A stretch of 64,000 bases of DNA, from the NCBI GenBank assembly GCA_949743265.1, contig CATJSX010000152.1, positions 1-64,000 on the forward strand. Reading direction: 5' to 3'. Both the position numbers and the translations under genes were made by a program. A model generated the notes under the pieces. The model was not told where the DNA came from and did not search any database. It worked only from the letters and a program-made list of their open reading frames with translations. Origin of the DNA: an uncultured Peptococcaceae bacterium. Its GTDB lineage: Bacteria; Bacillota; Peptococcia; Peptococcales; Peptococcaceae. Shown here in pieces: positions 3,248 to 59,974 of this stretch; the stretch's first letter is position 1, and each line of letters opens with the position of its first letter.

Positions 3248-3319
3248 AGCGGAAGACGAGATTCGAACTCGCGACCCTCGCCTTGGCAAGGCGATGCTCT
3301 ACCACTGAGCCACTTCCGC
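3248..3319 (-). tRNA. tRNA-Gly(GCC)
   Basis: Cloverleaf on the minus strand with acceptor arms GCGGAAG/CTTCCGC, T-loop TTCGAAT and anticodon loop CTTGCCAAG giving anticodon GCC. The discriminator is U as expected for glycine, and CCA is not encoded. It is the last tRNA of the array. Confidence 0.95.
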
Positions 3320-3320
3320 A

Positions 3321-3405
3321 TGGTGCGGGTGGAGGGACTTGAACCCACACGTCGTAAAACGCCAGATCCTAAGTCTGGTGCGTCTGCCAATTCCGCCACA
3401 CCCGC
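3321..3405 (-). tRNA. tRNA-Leu(TAG), with encoded CCA
   Basis: A long class II tRNA with acceptor arms GCGGGTG/CACCCGC and an extended variable arm. The anticodon loop is CTTAGGA, so the anticodon is TAG. It is the only tRNA in the array whose CCA tail is encoded (3321-3323). Confidence 0.95.
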
Positions 3406-3438
3406 TTATCATTATCTAATTCAGTTCAAAAAAATCAA

Positions 3439-3511
3439 TGAGTCATAACAGAATCGAACTGTTGACACCCTGATTAAAAGTCAGGTGCTCTACCGGCTGA
3501 GCTAATGACTC
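3439..3511 (-). tRNA. tRNA-Lys(TTT)
   Basis: Acceptor arms are GAGTCAT/ATGACTC and the anticodon stem-loop CCTGACTTTTAATCAGG gives anticodon TTT. CCA is not encoded. Confidence 0.95.
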
Positions 3512-3520
3512 ATAAAAAAA

Positions 3521-3592
3521 CTGGGGTAGCTGGATTTGAACCAACGAATGCGGGAGTCAAAGTCCCGTGCCTTACCGCTTGGCGATACCCCA
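3521..3592 (-). tRNA. tRNA-Gln(TTG)
   Basis: Acceptor arms are TGGGGTA/TACCCCA and the anticodon stem-loop CGGGACTTTGACTCCCG gives anticodon TTG. The discriminator is G, as usual for Gln. Confidence 0.95.
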
Positions 3593-3637
3593 ACGATTAA
3601 CATAAAACTTTTAACTAACAATCTAAATAAAACCCAA

Positions 3638-3711
3638 GGTGGAAGATGGGGATCGAACCCACGAATGCCGGAGCCACAATCCGGTGCGTTAACCACTTCG
3701 CCACATCCACC
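3638..3711 (-). tRNA. tRNA-His(GTG)
   Basis: Anticodon stem-loop CCGGATTGTGGCTCCGG gives anticodon GTG. The extra 5' G (G-1) typical of tRNA-His is present opposite the C discriminator. The acceptor stem contains one apparent U-U mismatch. CCA is not encoded. Confidence 0.95.
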
Positions 3712-3716
3712 ATATA

Positions 3717-3790
<74 letters not shown>

Positions 3791-3798
3791 AGACTTAA

Positions 3799-3869
3799 AG
3801 CGGGTGATGGGAATCGAACCCACATGGCTGGCTTGGAAGGCCAGAACTCTACCACTGAGCTACACCCGC
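3799..3869 (-). tRNA. tRNA-Gly(TCC)
   Basis: Acceptor arms are GCGGGTG/CACCCGC and the anticodon loop CTTCCAA gives anticodon TCC. The discriminator is U. It is the second glycine isoacceptor of the array. Confidence 0.95.
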
Positions 3870-3892
3870 AAAATGTGCCTTATAAAAGATGA

Positions 3893-3966
3893 TCGGGGTG
3901 GAGGGACTCGAACCCCCGGCCCCATGGTCCCAAACCACGTACGCTACCAAACTGCGCTACACCCCG
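3893..3966 (-). tRNA. tRNA-Pro(TGG)
   Basis: Acceptor arms are CGGGGTG/CACCCCG and the anticodon loop TTTGGGA gives anticodon TGG. It is the first tRNA after the promoter. Confidence 0.95.
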
Positions 3967-49916: not shown

Positions 49917-51395
49917 ATGTCGTCGACGAAAAAAAATACGCTATATTATATACACATCGTTATTTTTTTACTTATTACGTTCGGATTTGGTTTTTTACCT
50001 CCCTTTGCCCAAATTAGCGAAGTTGGTATGAAAGTACTGGGTGCTTTTTTAGGTGCTGTTTACGGATGGTTATTTATCGCGCTGGATTGGCCCAGTTTAA
50101 TTGCTTTGTTAGCATTAGGTATTTCAGGTTATGCTAACTCTACACATGAATTATTTATTTCAGGTTGGACGTTTCAGTCAGTATCACAATCTTTATTGGC
50201 TTATTTATTTGCAGAAGCAGTAGCTCAAACACAATTTACTTCTTATATTGCTAATAAATTGATGACTGTTAAATTATTCAGAGGAAAACCATATATTTTA
50301 ATGGCTGGTTGTATGTTTGCCGCTGAGCTGATGTTTTTATTGCATTGTGGTCTAGCAGGACTGTTTTTACTTTGGAGTATGTTTCGCGTTATGTCAGAAA
50401 AAGCTGGCTACGAAAAGAAAAATAAATTCACGATGATTATGGTTCCCTTTACTATTATGGTTTTTATCTTGGCAAACTTTGTTTGGCCCTTCAATCCTGG
50501 CTCAATTGTACAGCTCAATTTCTTCAGCAAAGGTATGGACGCCTTAGTGCCGGGCATTGCCGTTTCTTTTGGCGGTTGGACCATATGGTGGCTGATTTTT
50601 ACCAACGTTTACATTATTTTCTGGACGCTGTTTGTCAAATACATTTTGCGAATAAAATATCCTGAAATAGCCGCCCTAGGAGATCAGCTAGAATCACTAG
50701 GCGACGCTAATCAAAAAATGACTGGCGAGCAAAAATTCGGTTTGGCAGTTTTGATTGGTTTCTTAGTAGGTATGTTTGTTCCTAATATATTCCCTACAGA
50801 ATGGACGTTTACACAAATCTTTGCTCGCTTGGGTTTGACAGGTATGCTTTGTTTAGTATTGTGCATTATGTGTGCTTATCAAAAAAGCAATGGCGAACCG
50901 TTTATCACGCTGCAAGGCGTTTCCAAAGGAATTGTCTGGAATATTATCTGGCTTTTAGTCGCTACAGAACCGTTGGCAAATGCTTTTAACGCTGAACAAT
51001 GCGGGATCATGCCCTCTATTATGTCGGTAGTAACGCCTATCTTGATGCAGATGTCTTCAGCGCTATTCTTGGTTGCCGCTTTAATTATTTTAGGTTTGGT
51101 TACACAAGTCGTACACAATTTTGTATTGATGGTTGTCTTTATTCCCTTGCTCTGTCCCATGTACGCACAAATGGGTGGTAATCCACACGTCATTTTCTTT
51201 GGCTTAATTGTTGTTCTAAATGCAGCTCTTGCCACACCAGCGGCAAGTTATACTTCCGCGCTAATGTTTGGCGAAGGCTCTATGGAGAAAAAACATGCTT
51301 ATATTCAAGGTTTCAGCCATTTTGTTTTTTCTCTGATTATGTTTTTTGCTATTGGTTGGCCTTTAGCTAATCTCTTATTGCCATTTTCATTTTAA
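49917..51395 (+). CDS. SLC13/DASS-type anion permease
   Basis: The protein is 492 residues with about 12 hydrophobic segments. The layout, with GAFLGAVYGWLFIALDWPSL near the start and two hairpin regions (one around residues 95-160, the other around 350-470 with LNAALATPAASYTSALMFG), resembles sodium-coupled dicarboxylate/sulfate transporters. The substrate is not clear. AGGAGGG precedes the ATG. It lies 185 bases behind the hydrolase gene, past a terminator, so it is transcribed separately, but a joint function in uptake and hydrolysis of one substrate is possible. Confidence 0.78.
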   Translation: MSSTKKNTLYYIHIVIFLLITFGFGFLPPFAQISEVGMKVLGAFLGAVYGWLFIALDWPSLIALLALGISGYANSTHELFISGWTFQSVSQSLLAYLFAEAVAQTQFTSYIANKLMTVKLFRGKPYILMAGCMFAAELMFLLHCGLAGLFLLWSMFRVMSEKAGYEKKNKFTMIMVPFTIMVFILANFVWPFNPGSIVQLNFFSKGMDALVPGIAVSFGGWTIWWLIFTNVYIIFWTLFVKYILRIKYPEIAALGDQLESLGDANQKMTGEQKFGLAVLIGFLVGMFVPNIFPTEWTFTQIFARLGLTGMLCLVLCIMCAYQKSNGEPFITLQGVSKGIVWNIIWLLVATEPLANAFNAEQCGIMPSIMSVVTPILMQMSSALFLVAALIILGLVTQVVHNFVLMVVFIPLLCPMYAQMGGNPHVIFFGLIVVLNAALATPAASYTSALMFGEGSMEKKHAYIQGFSHFVFSLIMFFAIGWPLANLLLPFSF

Positions 51396-51543
51396 TCCAG
51401 TGGATAGCCTATCAAAAGTCAATAATGAACCAGCTAAAAGCAAATTTGCTGTCAGTCGATTTTTTATTACATTGTCGTAAAAAAATGATATCCATTGGCA
51501 AGTTTGCATAAATAATAAAAGTTGAAATTCTTGGCAAAAAAGA
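51396..51543. other. Spacer between the permease gene and the glnN leader
   Basis: About 150 bases with no gene; the leader of the glutamine synthetase gene fills the rest of the 375-base gap. Confidence 0.5.
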
Positions 51544-51572
51544 TTGACAAATACTTTTCATCGCTGTATAAT
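51544..51572 (+). promoter_or_regulatory. Perfect consensus promoter of the glutamine synthetase operon
   Basis: TTGACA (51544-51549), 17 bases, TATAAT (51567-51572). Transcription should start at about 51579, only some 14 bases before the first terminator stem. Confidence 0.9.
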
Positions 51573-51592
51573 GCAAAACATAAAGGCAAAGG

Positions 51593-51630
51593 CGTCTTTA
51601 AGGGTTTAGCGATCCTTAAAGACGTTTTTT
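51593..51630 (+). terminator. Leader terminator 1 of the glutamine synthetase operon
   Basis: CGTCTTTAAGG (51593-51603) pairs perfectly with CCTTAAAGACG (51614-51624), loop of 10, then TTTTTT. It would end transcription after about 50 nucleotides and is thus probably an attenuator rather than the end of the upstream gene, from which it is separated by the promoter. Confidence 0.88.
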
Positions 51631-51685
51631 CATTAGTTGCTGATTTTTCTAATGAATTGCTACAAAACAAATCAATATTTCCCCA

Positions 51686-51747
51686 AAAGGCAAAGACGTC
51701 TTTTAATGAAATCATCATTAAAGACGTCTTTGCCTTTATTATTTTTT
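51686..51747 (+). terminator. Leader terminator 2 of the glutamine synthetase operon
   Basis: A stem of 23 bp with one bulge joins 51686-51709 to 51715-51737, followed by ATTATTTTTT. Both arms contain the palindrome AAAGACGTCTTT. It ends just before the ribosome-binding site of the gene. Its left arm repeats the sequence of 51583-51601. Confidence 0.85.
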
Positions 51748-51770
51748 AAAATGAAAAGGAGTTTTTGATT

Positions 51771-53867
51771 ATGAACAAGATACCCGATTATTTTGGTAGT
51801 ATGGTTTTTGATGACAGAGTAATGCGTGCGACTCTTTCTACCGAAGTTTATCAAATCTTGAAAAAAACTATTGACGAAGGTGCGCAGCTGGATCTCACAG
51901 TAGCTAATGCCGTCGCCGACGCAATGAAAAATTGGGCTATCGCCAAAGGCGCAACTCACTATACGCACTGGTTTCAGCCTTTGACAGGCATTACTGCTGA
52001 AAAGCATGATAGTTTTATTTCGCCATCACCTGATGGTAGCGTTATCATGGAATTTTCCGGCAAAGAACTGATCAAAGGAGAACCAGATGCCTCATCGTTT
52101 CCTTCTGGTGGACTGCGAGCTACTTTTGAAGCTAGAGGTTATACCACTTGGGATCCCACCTCATACGCTTTTATCAAAGGCAAAACGTTGTGTATTCCGA
52201 CAGCTTTTTGTTCTTATGGCGGTGAAGCGTTAGATAAAAAGACGCCGCTTTTGCGTTCAATGGAAGCGCTCAACAAACAGGCGTTGCGAATTCTGCGTCT
52301 TTTCGGCAATGATCACGTTAAATATGTACGCACTTCAGTGGGACCAGAACAAGAATATTTTTTGATTGATAAAAAAATGTACGACCAACGTTCCGATCTT
52401 CGTTTTACTGGACGAACTTTATTTGGCGCTAAACCGCCCAAAGGACAAGAAATGGACGATCATTACTTTGGTGTGATCAAACCCCGTGTGGCAGCTTATA
52501 TGGAAGAATTGAATGAGGAATTGTGGAAGCTCGGAATTTTAGCCAAAACGGAGCACAATGAAGTCGCACCAGCTCAGCATGAATTGGCACCTATTTACAC
52601 AACAACTAATATTGCTACTGATCACAATCAGCTGACCATGGAAATTATGCAGAAAGTTGCCGCAAAGCATGGTTTAGTTTGTTTGCTGCATGAAAAACCT
52701 TTTGCCGGCGTTAACGGCAGTGGTAAGCATAACAACTGGTCGATGGCTACTGATAACGGCGTTAATCTGCTTTCTCCCGGTGAAACGCCTTATGAAAATG
52801 CACAGTTTCTTTTGTTTCTTTGCGCTGTTATTCAAGCGGTCGATGATTATCAAGATTTATTGCGCATTGCTGTGGCTACCGCCGGCAACGATCATCGACT
52901 AGGCGCTAATGAAGCGCCACCAGCAGTGGTATCTATTTTTTTGGGCGATGAATTAAACGCTGTATTAGAAGCCATTGAAAACGATACACCATATTGCGGC
53001 GTTGCCAAAATGCAAATGAAGTTAGGCGTTGACGTATTGCCCAAATTCAATCGTGATACTACCGATCGCAATCGAACTTCGCCCTTTGCCTTCACTGGCA
53101 ACAAATTTGAGTTTCGTATGCTCGGCTCATCTAATAGCATTGCTTGCGCCAATATTATGCTCAACAGCGCCGTTGCTGAAAGTTTGAAAAATTACGCTGA
53201 TAAATTAGAAAAAGCAACGAATTTTGAATCAACACTGCACGAAATGATCCGCCAAACCATTAAAGAGCACAAAAAGATCATTTTCAACGGTAACGGCTAT
53301 GATGATGCTTGGATCAAAGAAGCCGTCGAAAAGCGGGGTTTGCTCAATTATCGCACCACTGCCGATTGTTTGCCTCATTTGCTTGATGATAAAAATATTG
53401 CTATGCTGACTGCTCACGGTATTTTTTCCGAAGCAGAAATTCATTCTCGTTATGAAATTACACTGGAAAATTACTGCAAAACTGTCGTTATCGAAGCCAA
53501 TACCATGGTAGATATGGCTAAAACGGAAATTATGCCAGCTATTGAAGATTATATACTAGCATTGGCACAAACAGCAGTTGCCAAAAAAACATTAGACGCT
53601 GCAATACCTTGCAGTTACGAAAGTAATTTGCTAAAAAAACTCTCTGTTTTAATAGAACAAATCAACATAAAAACTGACGCACTGCAAGAAGCTTTGATTA
53701 CGCGCCACACAGCGGAAAATATTGGCGCTGAAGCTATGATTATTCGCGACGCTATTTTGATAAAAATGAGCGAATTAAGGGTGATTTGTGATGAAGCTGA
53801 AACAATTACTGCCAAAAAATATTGGCCTTTTCCCACTTATGGCGATTTGTTATTCGGTGTCAAATAA
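51771..53867 (+). CDS. glnN: Glutamine synthetase type III
   Basis: The protein is 698 residues, far longer than types I and II and typical of GSIII. Family segments are [67 protein letters not shown] and KHNNWS. It condenses glutamate and ammonia with ATP. AAGGAG lies 9 bases before the ATG at 51771. The Amt-PII gene follows after 27 bases, so uptake and assimilation of ammonium are co-expressed, downstream of a two-terminator leader. Confidence 0.96.
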
Positions 53868-53894
53868 AAAGATAGTCTTTAGGAGATGAGCAAG

Positions 53895-55655
53895 ATGGAA
53901 GATGCCTTCAGAGAAATTATTATTGAGGCTGTTTCTGCCGAAATATTCGGCGTATGGTTTCTGATTGGTGCTGCATTGGTTTTTTGGATGCAAGCAGGTT
54001 TTACGATGGTAGAGGTCGGTTTTACCAGAGCAAAAAATGCTGGCAATATCATCATGAAAAATCTAATGGATTTTTGCATAGGCACAGTTATGTTTATTAT
54101 AATCGGCTTTAGTTTATTGATGGGCGAAGACATGCTAGGTCTTATCGGCAAACCGGGATTCGATTTGTTTACTGCTTATGCCAACTTTGATTTCTCCAGT
54201 TTTGTATTTAATTTAGTTTTTTGTGCAACAACAGCAACCATCGTTTCTGGCGCTATGGCAGAGCGAACTAAATTTCTTTCTTACTGTATTTATTCGGCTG
54301 TAATTTCTGGCGTGATTTATCCCATTGAAGCCCATTGGATTTGGGGCGGCGGCTGGCTGGCGCAATTGGGTTTTCATGATTTCGCCGGTTCTTGCGCAAT
54401 TCATATGGTTGGCGGCGTTTCTGCCTTGATTGGTGCCAAAATTCTCGGTCCACGTATTGGTAAATTCAAAAAAGATACTACCAGAAATATTATAAAAGTT
54501 AATGCCTTTCCCGGTCATAGTATTGCTTTAGGCGCACTTGGAGTTTTTATTTTATGGTTTGGTTGGTATGGTTTTAATGGTGCAGCAGCAACTTCGACGG
54601 CGCAGCTCGGTTCAATCTTTTTGACTACAACAATTGCGCCAGCTATGGCTACTGTCGTCTGCATGATTTTTACTTGGCTCAAATACGGCAAACCCGATGT
54701 TTCCATGTGCTTAAACGCCTCTTTAGCGGGATTGGTAGCAATTACTGCCGGATGTGATATTACTGATGCTTGTGGCGCTATAGTCATTGGCGCTGTAGCC
54801 GGATTATTAGTGGTTTTTGGTATTTGGTTTTTGGATCATCAATTACACGTTGACGATCCTGTAGGCGCTGTAGCCGTACACGGATTTAACGGTATTTGGG
54901 GAACACTGGCAGTCGGCTTATTCGCAACGCCTGCTGCACCAGAATATACGCTAACCAACGCTTCAGGTCAACTAATTGCTGGATTATTTTATGGCGGTGG
55001 TTTTGACTTATTAGCCGTTCAATCCTTGGGCATAATAACGACAGCACTTTGGAGTAGCGTTGCCATAGCTATTACATTCTGTTTGATCAAATCAACCGTG
55101 GGGCTGCGCGTTACTTATGAAGAAGAAATCGCTGGCCTTGACGCTACCGAACACGGCTTACCTTCAGCCTATGCCGGTTTTGCTATGGTACCCGAATACA
55201 TAGATGAAAGCAACGCCGCGCCCATCATCACTACTAATGAAACATCACCTGAAGAAGCCATTACAGTGAAAAAAATGACGACCTTGGTTGAAGATACGCC
55301 TAAACTAACAAAGATAGAAATTATTTGCAAAGAAGCTCGTCTGGAAGCGTTAAAAACAGCAATGATGGCTATTGGCATTACAGGCATGACAGTTTCTCAT
55401 GTTCTTGGCTGCGGTGCGCAAAAAGGTAAACCGGAATATTATCGCGGCGTACAACTGGAAGCTAATTTGCTGCCTAAAGTGCAAGTCGATATTGTCGTCA
55501 GCAAAGTTCCTGTTCGCAATGTAATTGAAACGGCAAAAGCTGTACTGTATACTGGACATATCGGCGACGGTAAAATTTTTGTTTACGATGTAGAAAATGT
55601 GATTAAAGTTCGTACTGGCGAGGAAGGTTACGAAGCCTTGCAAGATGTTGAATAA
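53895..55655 (+). CDS. Ammonium transporter fused to a PII signalling domain
   Basis: The protein is 586 residues. Residues 1 to about 410 form an Amt channel with 11 membrane helices: ADWFLIGAALVFWMQAGF-like start, FCATTATIVSGAMAERTKF, EAHWIWGGGWL and VAVHGFNGIWGTLAVGLF with the conserved pore histidines. A linker rich in Thr and Glu leads to a PII domain at about 470-586 (KIEIICKEARLEAL, GITGMTVSHVLGCGAQKG, Y516-R517-G518, GDGKIFVYDVENVIKVRTGE). The residue equal to Tyr51 of E. coli GlnB is L521. ATG at 53895 has AGGAG 9 bases upstream. Confidence 0.93.
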   Translation: MEDAFREIIIEAVSAEIFGVWFLIGAALVFWMQAGFTMVEVGFTRAKNAGNIIMKNLMDFCIGTVMFIIIGFSLLMGEDMLGLIGKPGFDLFTAYANFDFSSFVFNLVFCATTATIVSGAMAERTKFLSYCIYSAVISGVIYPIEAHWIWGGGWLAQLGFHDFAGSCAIHMVGGVSALIGAKILGPRIGKFKKDTTRNIIKVNAFPGHSIALGALGVFILWFGWYGFNGAAATSTAQLGSIFLTTTIAPAMATVVCMIFTWLKYGKPDVSMCLNASLAGLVAITAGCDITDACGAIVIGAVAGLLVVFGIWFLDHQLHVDDPVGAVAVHGFNGIWGTLAVGLFATPAAPEYTLTNASGQLIAGLFYGGGFDLLAVQSLGIITTALWSSVAIAITFCLIKSTVGLRVTYEEEIAGLDATEHGLPSAYAGFAMVPEYIDESNAAPIITTNETSPEEAITVKKMTTLVEDTPKLTKIEIICKEARLEALKTAMMAIGITGMTVSHVLGCGAQKGKPEYYRGVQLEANLLPKVQVDIVVSKVPVRNVIETAKAVLYTGHIGDGKIFVYDVENVIKVRTGEEGYEALQDVE

Positions 55656-59805: not shown

Positions 59806-59824
59806 TAGACCATCAAATTCATAA

Positions 59825-59933
59825 AATCTTCAGGGCAGGGTGTAATTCCCTACCGGCGGTAAAGCCCGCGGGCCGCAAGGCAGATTCGGTGAAATTCCGA
59901 AGCCGACAGTATAGTCTGGATAAAAAGAAGATT
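59825..59933 (+). promoter_or_regulatory. FMN riboswitch (RFN element)
   Basis: The aptamer contains the RFN consensus blocks in order: CAGGGCAGGGTG, AATTCCCTACCGGCGGT, AAGCCCGCG, GATTCGGTG, ATTCCGAAGCCGACAGT and AGTCTGGAT. The closing P1 stem is AATCTT (59825-59830) with AAGATT (59928-59933). It controls ribD-ribE-ribBA-ribH in response to FMN. Confidence 0.97.
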
Positions 59934-59974
59934 ATAAAAGACAGGATAATATTATTCTGTGGATAAAATAATTG

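Follow-up and report, generated by a model that had tools for sequence, protein, structure and literature searches.

A candidate ANTAR antitermination leader with one hexaloop per terminator in front of a glutamine synthetase III gene

ANTAR antiterminator proteins follow a published recognition rule, a hairpin with a six-base loop that carries A at position 1 and G at position 4, and overlap of this hexaloop with a terminator is a known trait of their targets (PMC3369931, PMC8934654). The EutV sites of the Enterococcus faecalis eut leaders contain two such hexaloops 5-12 nt apart, only the second of which overlaps the single terminator, and linkers of 2-25 nt have been accepted in curation. 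In studied ANTAR targets the loss of either hexaloop or a lengthening of the linker destroys regulation, and a 20-nt longer linker abolished EutV antitermination in vitro. From structure and binding, Walshe et al. (2022) reduced the minimal ANTAR site to one hexaloop, leaving open why antitermination requires two and whether single sites are used in nature.

Several ANTAR systems are connected to nitrogen. The nitrogen regulons found by covariance search in Ramesh 2012 (PMC3369931) include ammonium transporter, P-II, and glutamine and glutamate synthase targets. NitR of Clostridium is described as an antiterminator regulator of ammonium assimilation for which an antisense RNA is additionally reported (PMC4676874). 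AmiR of Pseudomonas aeruginosa has a non-phosphorylated pseudo-receiver and a His at the G4-stacking position (PDB 1qo0), responds to amides via AmiC, and acts on a target leader of the dual-hexaloop kind.

The leader described here lies in front of the glutamine synthetase type III (GSIII) gene in the window, the 64-kb stretch of DNA that was analysed. It resembles the eut leaders (PMC3369931, PMC8934654) in its A1/G4 hexaloops, in the position of the hexaloop 3' arm within a terminator, in the ANTAR-domain protein of its genome, and in its predicted default termination, and it shares nitrogen genes as targets with the Ramesh 2012 regulons and NitR. Unlike EutV sites it has one hexaloop per terminator, in units 84 nt apart with the first at the 5' end, and its putative regulator, unlike EutV, is without phosphorylation residues. 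At a spacing of 84 nt the EutV mechanism cannot operate here in unmodified form. We read this leader, with a probability of about 0.85, as a switch of the ANTAR (NitR/AmiR) type that controls GSIII and the ammonium transporter encoded downstream by antitermination. This reading draws on sequence evidence: the A1/G4 loops, their overlap with terminators, their presence in 74 of 76 related leaders with the loop kept, three units in the genome itself, and an ANTAR gene in 38 of 38 leader genomes.

Anatomy of the leader

The features of the locus are as follows.

51544-51572, + strand: promoter, -35 TTGACA and -10 TATAAT with a 17-nt spacer (12/12 consensus match)
51581-51600, + strand: P1, ANTAR-type hexaloop hairpin TAAAGGC[AAAGGC]GTCTTTA, candidate first antiterminator (fold -5.6 kcal/mol)
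51588-51630, + strand: T1, first intrinsic terminator, 19-bp stem with U6 tail (fold and covariance model R1)
51685-51704, + strand: P2, hexaloop hairpin AAAAGGC[AAAGAC]GTCTTTT, candidate second antiterminator (fold -5.2 kcal/mol)
51686-51748, + strand: T2, second intrinsic terminator, about 23 bp with U-rich tail (fold and R1)
51754-51761, + strand: ribosome-binding site AAAAGGAG (read from the sequence)
51771-53867, + strand: glnN, GSIII, 698 aa, ATG at 51771 (85% identical to a Lachnospiraceae GSIII)
53886-55655, + strand: fusion of an ammonium transporter with a P-II domain (78% identity with the protein encoded next to GSIII in Lachnospiraceae)

An earlier note on this DNA had described a perfect promoter followed by two terminators, and these elements stand. 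The promoter, with its score of 12/12, is the sole TTGACA-17-TATAAT in 50000-54500, and its position would place the transcription start at about 51579-51580. T1 folds at -22.7 kcal/mol over 51588-51629 (z -7.3 versus shuffled sequence) and T2 at -31.2 kcal/mol over 51686-51737 (z -10.5), both are followed by U-rich tails, and the two units are matched by R1 at 51579-51637 (E 3e-7) and 51683-51739 (E 1e-5). The whole 192-nt leader folds at -66.9 kcal/mol (z -9.6). The 18-nt gap between GSIII and the ammonium transporter gene suggests that the two are probably on one transcript, and since GSIII has no promoter of its own downstream of T2, its expression would need read-through.

The note had also taken the leader to be attenuator-like, with no known riboswitch or T-box and no leader peptide, and this characterization agrees with what we find. 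Rfam riboswitch, T-box, and glnA RNA families gave no meaningful match on the leader at either gathering or permissive thresholds, and there is no room for a leader open reading frame before T1 because P1 starts about 2 nt after the predicted transcription start. Elsewhere in the window an FMN riboswitch is found at 59822-59936 (114.6 bits) and a cluster of eight tRNA genes at 3248-3966 on the minus strand.

P1 and P2 were overlooked in the earlier note, which divided the two terminators into segments A to D, T1 being A-B and T2 being C-D. The hairpins sit inside A and C, and the resemblance that had been seen between these segments arises because each contains the same hexaloop hairpin. Both have a 7-bp stem and a six-base loop (AAAGGC and AAAGAC) whose first base is A and whose fourth is G; P1 is placed at the extreme 5' end of the transcript, given the predicted start, and P2 follows 84 nt after it. 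The 5' arm of T1 includes both the loop and the 3' arm of P1, and P1 and T1 are therefore mutually exclusive. The same holds for P2 and T2, since the 5' arm of T2 holds the whole of P2 bar its outermost base and thus includes the P2 loop and 3' arm. No other hexaloop overlapping a terminator occurs on the + strand of the window. The A1/G4 six-base-loop hairpin of an ANTAR target is thus present in both P1 and P2 and the hairpin-terminator overlap in both units, whereas the short linker and one terminator of the canonical dual-hexaloop site are replaced by an 84-nt gap with a terminator between the hairpins.

Hexaloops, terminators, and competing folds in related leaders

We examined the 300 nt upstream of 76 related GSIII genes, taken without motif selection. 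The proteins that these genes encode come from Lachnospiraceae and related clostridia and reach 85% identity with the window GSIII. An A1/G4 hexaloop hairpin is present in 74 of the 76 leaders, whereas 200 dinucleotide shuffles gave 2.5 on average and never more than 9; the shuffles overstate independence because the leaders are related to each other. A1 and G4 occur together in 116 of the 190 six-base-loop hairpins in this set, and 104 of the 111 A1/G4 hexaloops overlap a terminator. Many of the leaders have one unit only. Two units are found in 35 of the 76, with terminators at both units in 30 of the 35 and with inter-unit gaps of 38-161 nt, mostly near 57. Of the 58 leaders in which a promoter was recognised, 50 have a first hexaloop that begins 6-16 nt past the -10 box, as P1 does, and as it then comprises the first bases of the RNA, no earlier hexaloop is possible in these 50.

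Stems differ completely among the leaders while the loop has remained constant (AAGGC/GTCTT, TGAGC/GTTCA, ACAGC/GCTGT, AACAC/GTGTT, and AGAAC/GTTCT), with the loop keeping an AANGRY-like pattern. In an alignment of 42 sequences, pairing is kept at 97.6% in the hexaloop stem, where 56 cells are double-changed, and at 93.2% in the terminator stem, which has 165 such cells. These figures are inflated and serve as description, not proof, because the sequences were chosen for having a hexaloop and terminator.

This pattern bears on the idea that the leader contains constitutive tandem terminators or a DNA operator and not an RNA switch, for which one could cite the perfect palindrome AAAGACGTCTTT, present in three genome copies, two of them in the leader. 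Stem letters change in concert while loop letters are kept, many copies are non-palindromic, and the hexaloop position is transcribed and fixed relative to the start site, all of which, together with the expected need for read-through, make this idea extremely improbable. As an operator the palindrome itself was rejected: there are three copies only, one of them at an unrelated place, and it is the loop that is conserved and not the stem.

A second explanation, which overlaps with the ANTAR switch proposed here, is that the leader is a stretched canonical dual-hexaloop site, with T1 incidental and P1 serving solely to recruit for P2. In its favour, both hairpins have A1/G4 hexaloops, and P1 would do the recruiting in the successive-binding model of ANTAR sites. 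We nevertheless consider this unlikely. The gltAB leader of the same genome and GSIII leaders of the family have one hexaloop at the predicted start, with no space for a P1; T1 is conserved with an own-pair signal, and both units usually have terminators where two are present; and linkers reaching from 38 to 161 nt surpass the known limits of dual-hexaloop sites. A hidden second hexaloop beside each unit, which would have rescued the canonical dual arrangement, was also sought and rejected: only 7 of the 111 hexaloops have a hexaloop-like partner within 25 nt, and these are weak candidates at a chance-like frequency.

Canonical dual-hexaloop ANTAR sites were seen among relatives in L102, L104, L178, and L190. 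In order-level relatives this form is represented by L102 (10-nt linker), L104 (9 nt), and L106 (25 nt), so the single and dual forms coexist in the wider group. In family relatives a second unit, of a different stem type (AACAC/GTGTT), is placed between GSIII and amt (L097 3643-3690 and L095 3622-3670); GSIII has its own unit there, and the two genes would thus be guarded separately.

The ON state suggested in the earlier note was a four-segment attenuator in which an A-D pairing encloses B-C, with a nitrogen-sensing RNA-binding protein or small molecule as the possible switch. On paper the complementarity exists: 22 bp are available to A-D (51580-51601 against 51718-51739) and 12 bp to B-C (51618-51629 against 51692-51703), giving a fold of -48.7 kcal/mol, and the window's own A-D scores higher than every swapped pair. 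Folding of both alternatives favours the terminators, however, at -61.1 kcal/mol, and in 31 two-unit leaders of relatives a leader's own pairing is equal to that of swapped segments for both A-D (27.1 versus 26.8) and B-C (21.5 versus 21.3), while the terminators A-B (33.3 versus 29.3) and C-D (35.4 versus 29.6) do show an own-pair signal. By this test, a refuting condition that the note itself had set, A-D is not conserved as a pairing. Segment A is moreover transcribed first into P1/T1, and A-D is impossible in the one-unit leaders that are common among relatives. A-D enclosing B-C as the ON fold is therefore highly improbable. The unusually good A-D match in the window is explained by P1 and P2 being near copies, and A-D may form as a minor competitor of T2 in this genome.

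The ANTAR protein and the proposed switch

The window genome has one ANTAR gene (L144 5068-5652; Pfam ANTAR, 59.8 bits), the last in a gltAB (glutamate synthase)-glnA-ANTAR operon whose leader carries one unit, made up of the hairpin AATGAGC[AAAGGC]GTTCATT and a terminator. The regulon is defined here by R1, which was trained partly on genomes searched. A whole-genome R1 search returned three units, two in the GSIII leader and one in the gltAB-glnA-ANTAR leader, with the rest far weaker. Across 60 relatives, strong R1 matches occur in 11 of 41 ANTAR-bearing genomes and in 0 of 19 that lack ANTAR (p 0.009), and an ANTAR gene lies within 6 kb of 17 of 57 R1 match sites, where 0.3 would be expected. 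All 38 of the GSIII-leader genomes tested encode ANTAR, and Lachnospiraceae bacterium 3-1 has a glnA-ANTAR pair at the GSIII-amt locus, oriented divergently from those two genes. In Clostridium, nitR is linked to glnA.

These associations also weigh on whether the hexaloop is read by a small molecule or by some other RNA-binding protein. Such a reader is improbable: an A1/G4 hexaloop overlapping a terminator is the ANTAR rule, the ANTAR gene is both present in all 38 leader genomes tested and co-located with the units, and the ANTAR operon itself has a hexaloop unit. The suggestion in the earlier note that an RNA-binding protein tied to nitrogen acts as the switch was probably right.

Where a receiver would have DD and D, the ANTAR protein carries VLLVSA and VIINAPL, which are kept in three relatives. 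The Pfam receiver domain has no match in the protein, and it is pseudo-receiver-like, without the acidic pocket and phospho-aspartate, which makes phosphorylation unlikely as the signal. The neighbouring GlnA is the obvious candidate partner, as a hypothesis. By hand reading of the EutV RNA contacts, Tyr164 is replaced by His as in AmiR, and Arg168, Arg175, and Arg177 are not kept.

Single units precede NAD synthase and SAICAR synthetase (purC) genes that adjoin glnA-ANTAR in family relatives (L146 2719-2774 and 3642-3696; L145 4612-4663; L147 3494-3544). In the family relative G005, a tandem two-unit leader resembling the one in the window (L148 5500-5640) precedes an asparagine synthetase-like gene, named from its sequence. 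Most of these targets are tied to ammonia or glutamine nitrogen, which suggests a regulon that reaches wider ammonia/glutamine genes.

In the ANTAR switch that we propose, each nascent unit would by default fold into its terminator, a state favoured by the folding energies (-5.6 and -5.2 kcal/mol for the hexaloop hairpins versus -22.7 and -31.2 for the terminators), and transcription would end near 51630 or 51748. Under nitrogen shortage, ANTAR protein from the gltAB-glnA-ANTAR operon would bind the A1/G4 hexaloop of P1 as it emerges from the polymerase. P1 held in this way would block T1 and allow the polymerase to proceed to the second unit, where P2 would be captured likewise and T2 blocked, and GSIII and the ammonium transporter would be made. 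The likely ON state is thus one in which ANTAR protein holds the P1 and P2 hexaloop hairpins, and having two terminators one after the other should reduce leak and make the response steeper. We infer binding, antitermination, and the direction of the response from the anatomy and from studied ANTAR systems. Two parts of this model are the least certain. One is the signal: we suppose that the pseudo-receiver responds to GlnA or to glutamine status and not to phosphorylation. The other is whether a single hexaloop per terminator is enough, toward which we lean. More tentatively still, the 5'-end single hexaloop could define a natural class, an autonomous and stackable switch operated by an ANTAR protein of the pseudo-receiver type, which would detect nitrogen via the neighbouring GlnA and not via phosphorylation.

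One hexaloop per terminator, stacked in series, is a departure from known ANTAR targets. In the open-access literature, the supplementary tables of Ramesh 2012 apart, we found no paper describing such a single-hexaloop class, nor did we find in the open-access literature a published RNA target through which gut Lachnospiraceae and relatives control GSIII, ammonium uptake, and glutamate synthase; the proposed switch offers a mechanism for this control. Single-hexaloop units at the start site fall outside the Ramesh 2012 model, because its covariance search required dual hairpins (PMC3369931), and this suggests that published dual-hairpin searches missed the class. The GSIII leaders are natural test cases, available in dozens of gut-bacterial genomes that mostly have a single ANTAR gene and, in those sampled, few clean sites per genome; [Ruminococcus] torques ATCC 27756 (L049), a cultured gut commensal, is among the carriers of this leader. 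One-unit and two-unit versions occur naturally before the same gene and allow comparison, and single and dual forms, with their ANTAR proteins, could be compared for what allows a single site.

Origin of the locus

The flanking Der protein is 75-77% identical within the genome's family, which marks it as native. The window GSIII in contrast groups within a Lachnospiraceae-like clade and not with the GSIII clade of the genome's family, the ammonium transporter has 78% identity to its Lachnospiraceae counterpart versus 58-63% in the family, and the stem type of the leader matches that of the donor. The leader, GSIII, and the amt-P-II fusion (51544-55655) were thus probably acquired together from a Lachnospiraceae-like donor. 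A second GSIII gene of this genome is found on contig C90 (L115 3590-3720, minus strand). Its leader has no A1/G4 hexaloop and no Rfam match; it does contain a promoter and a U-rich terminator-like end.
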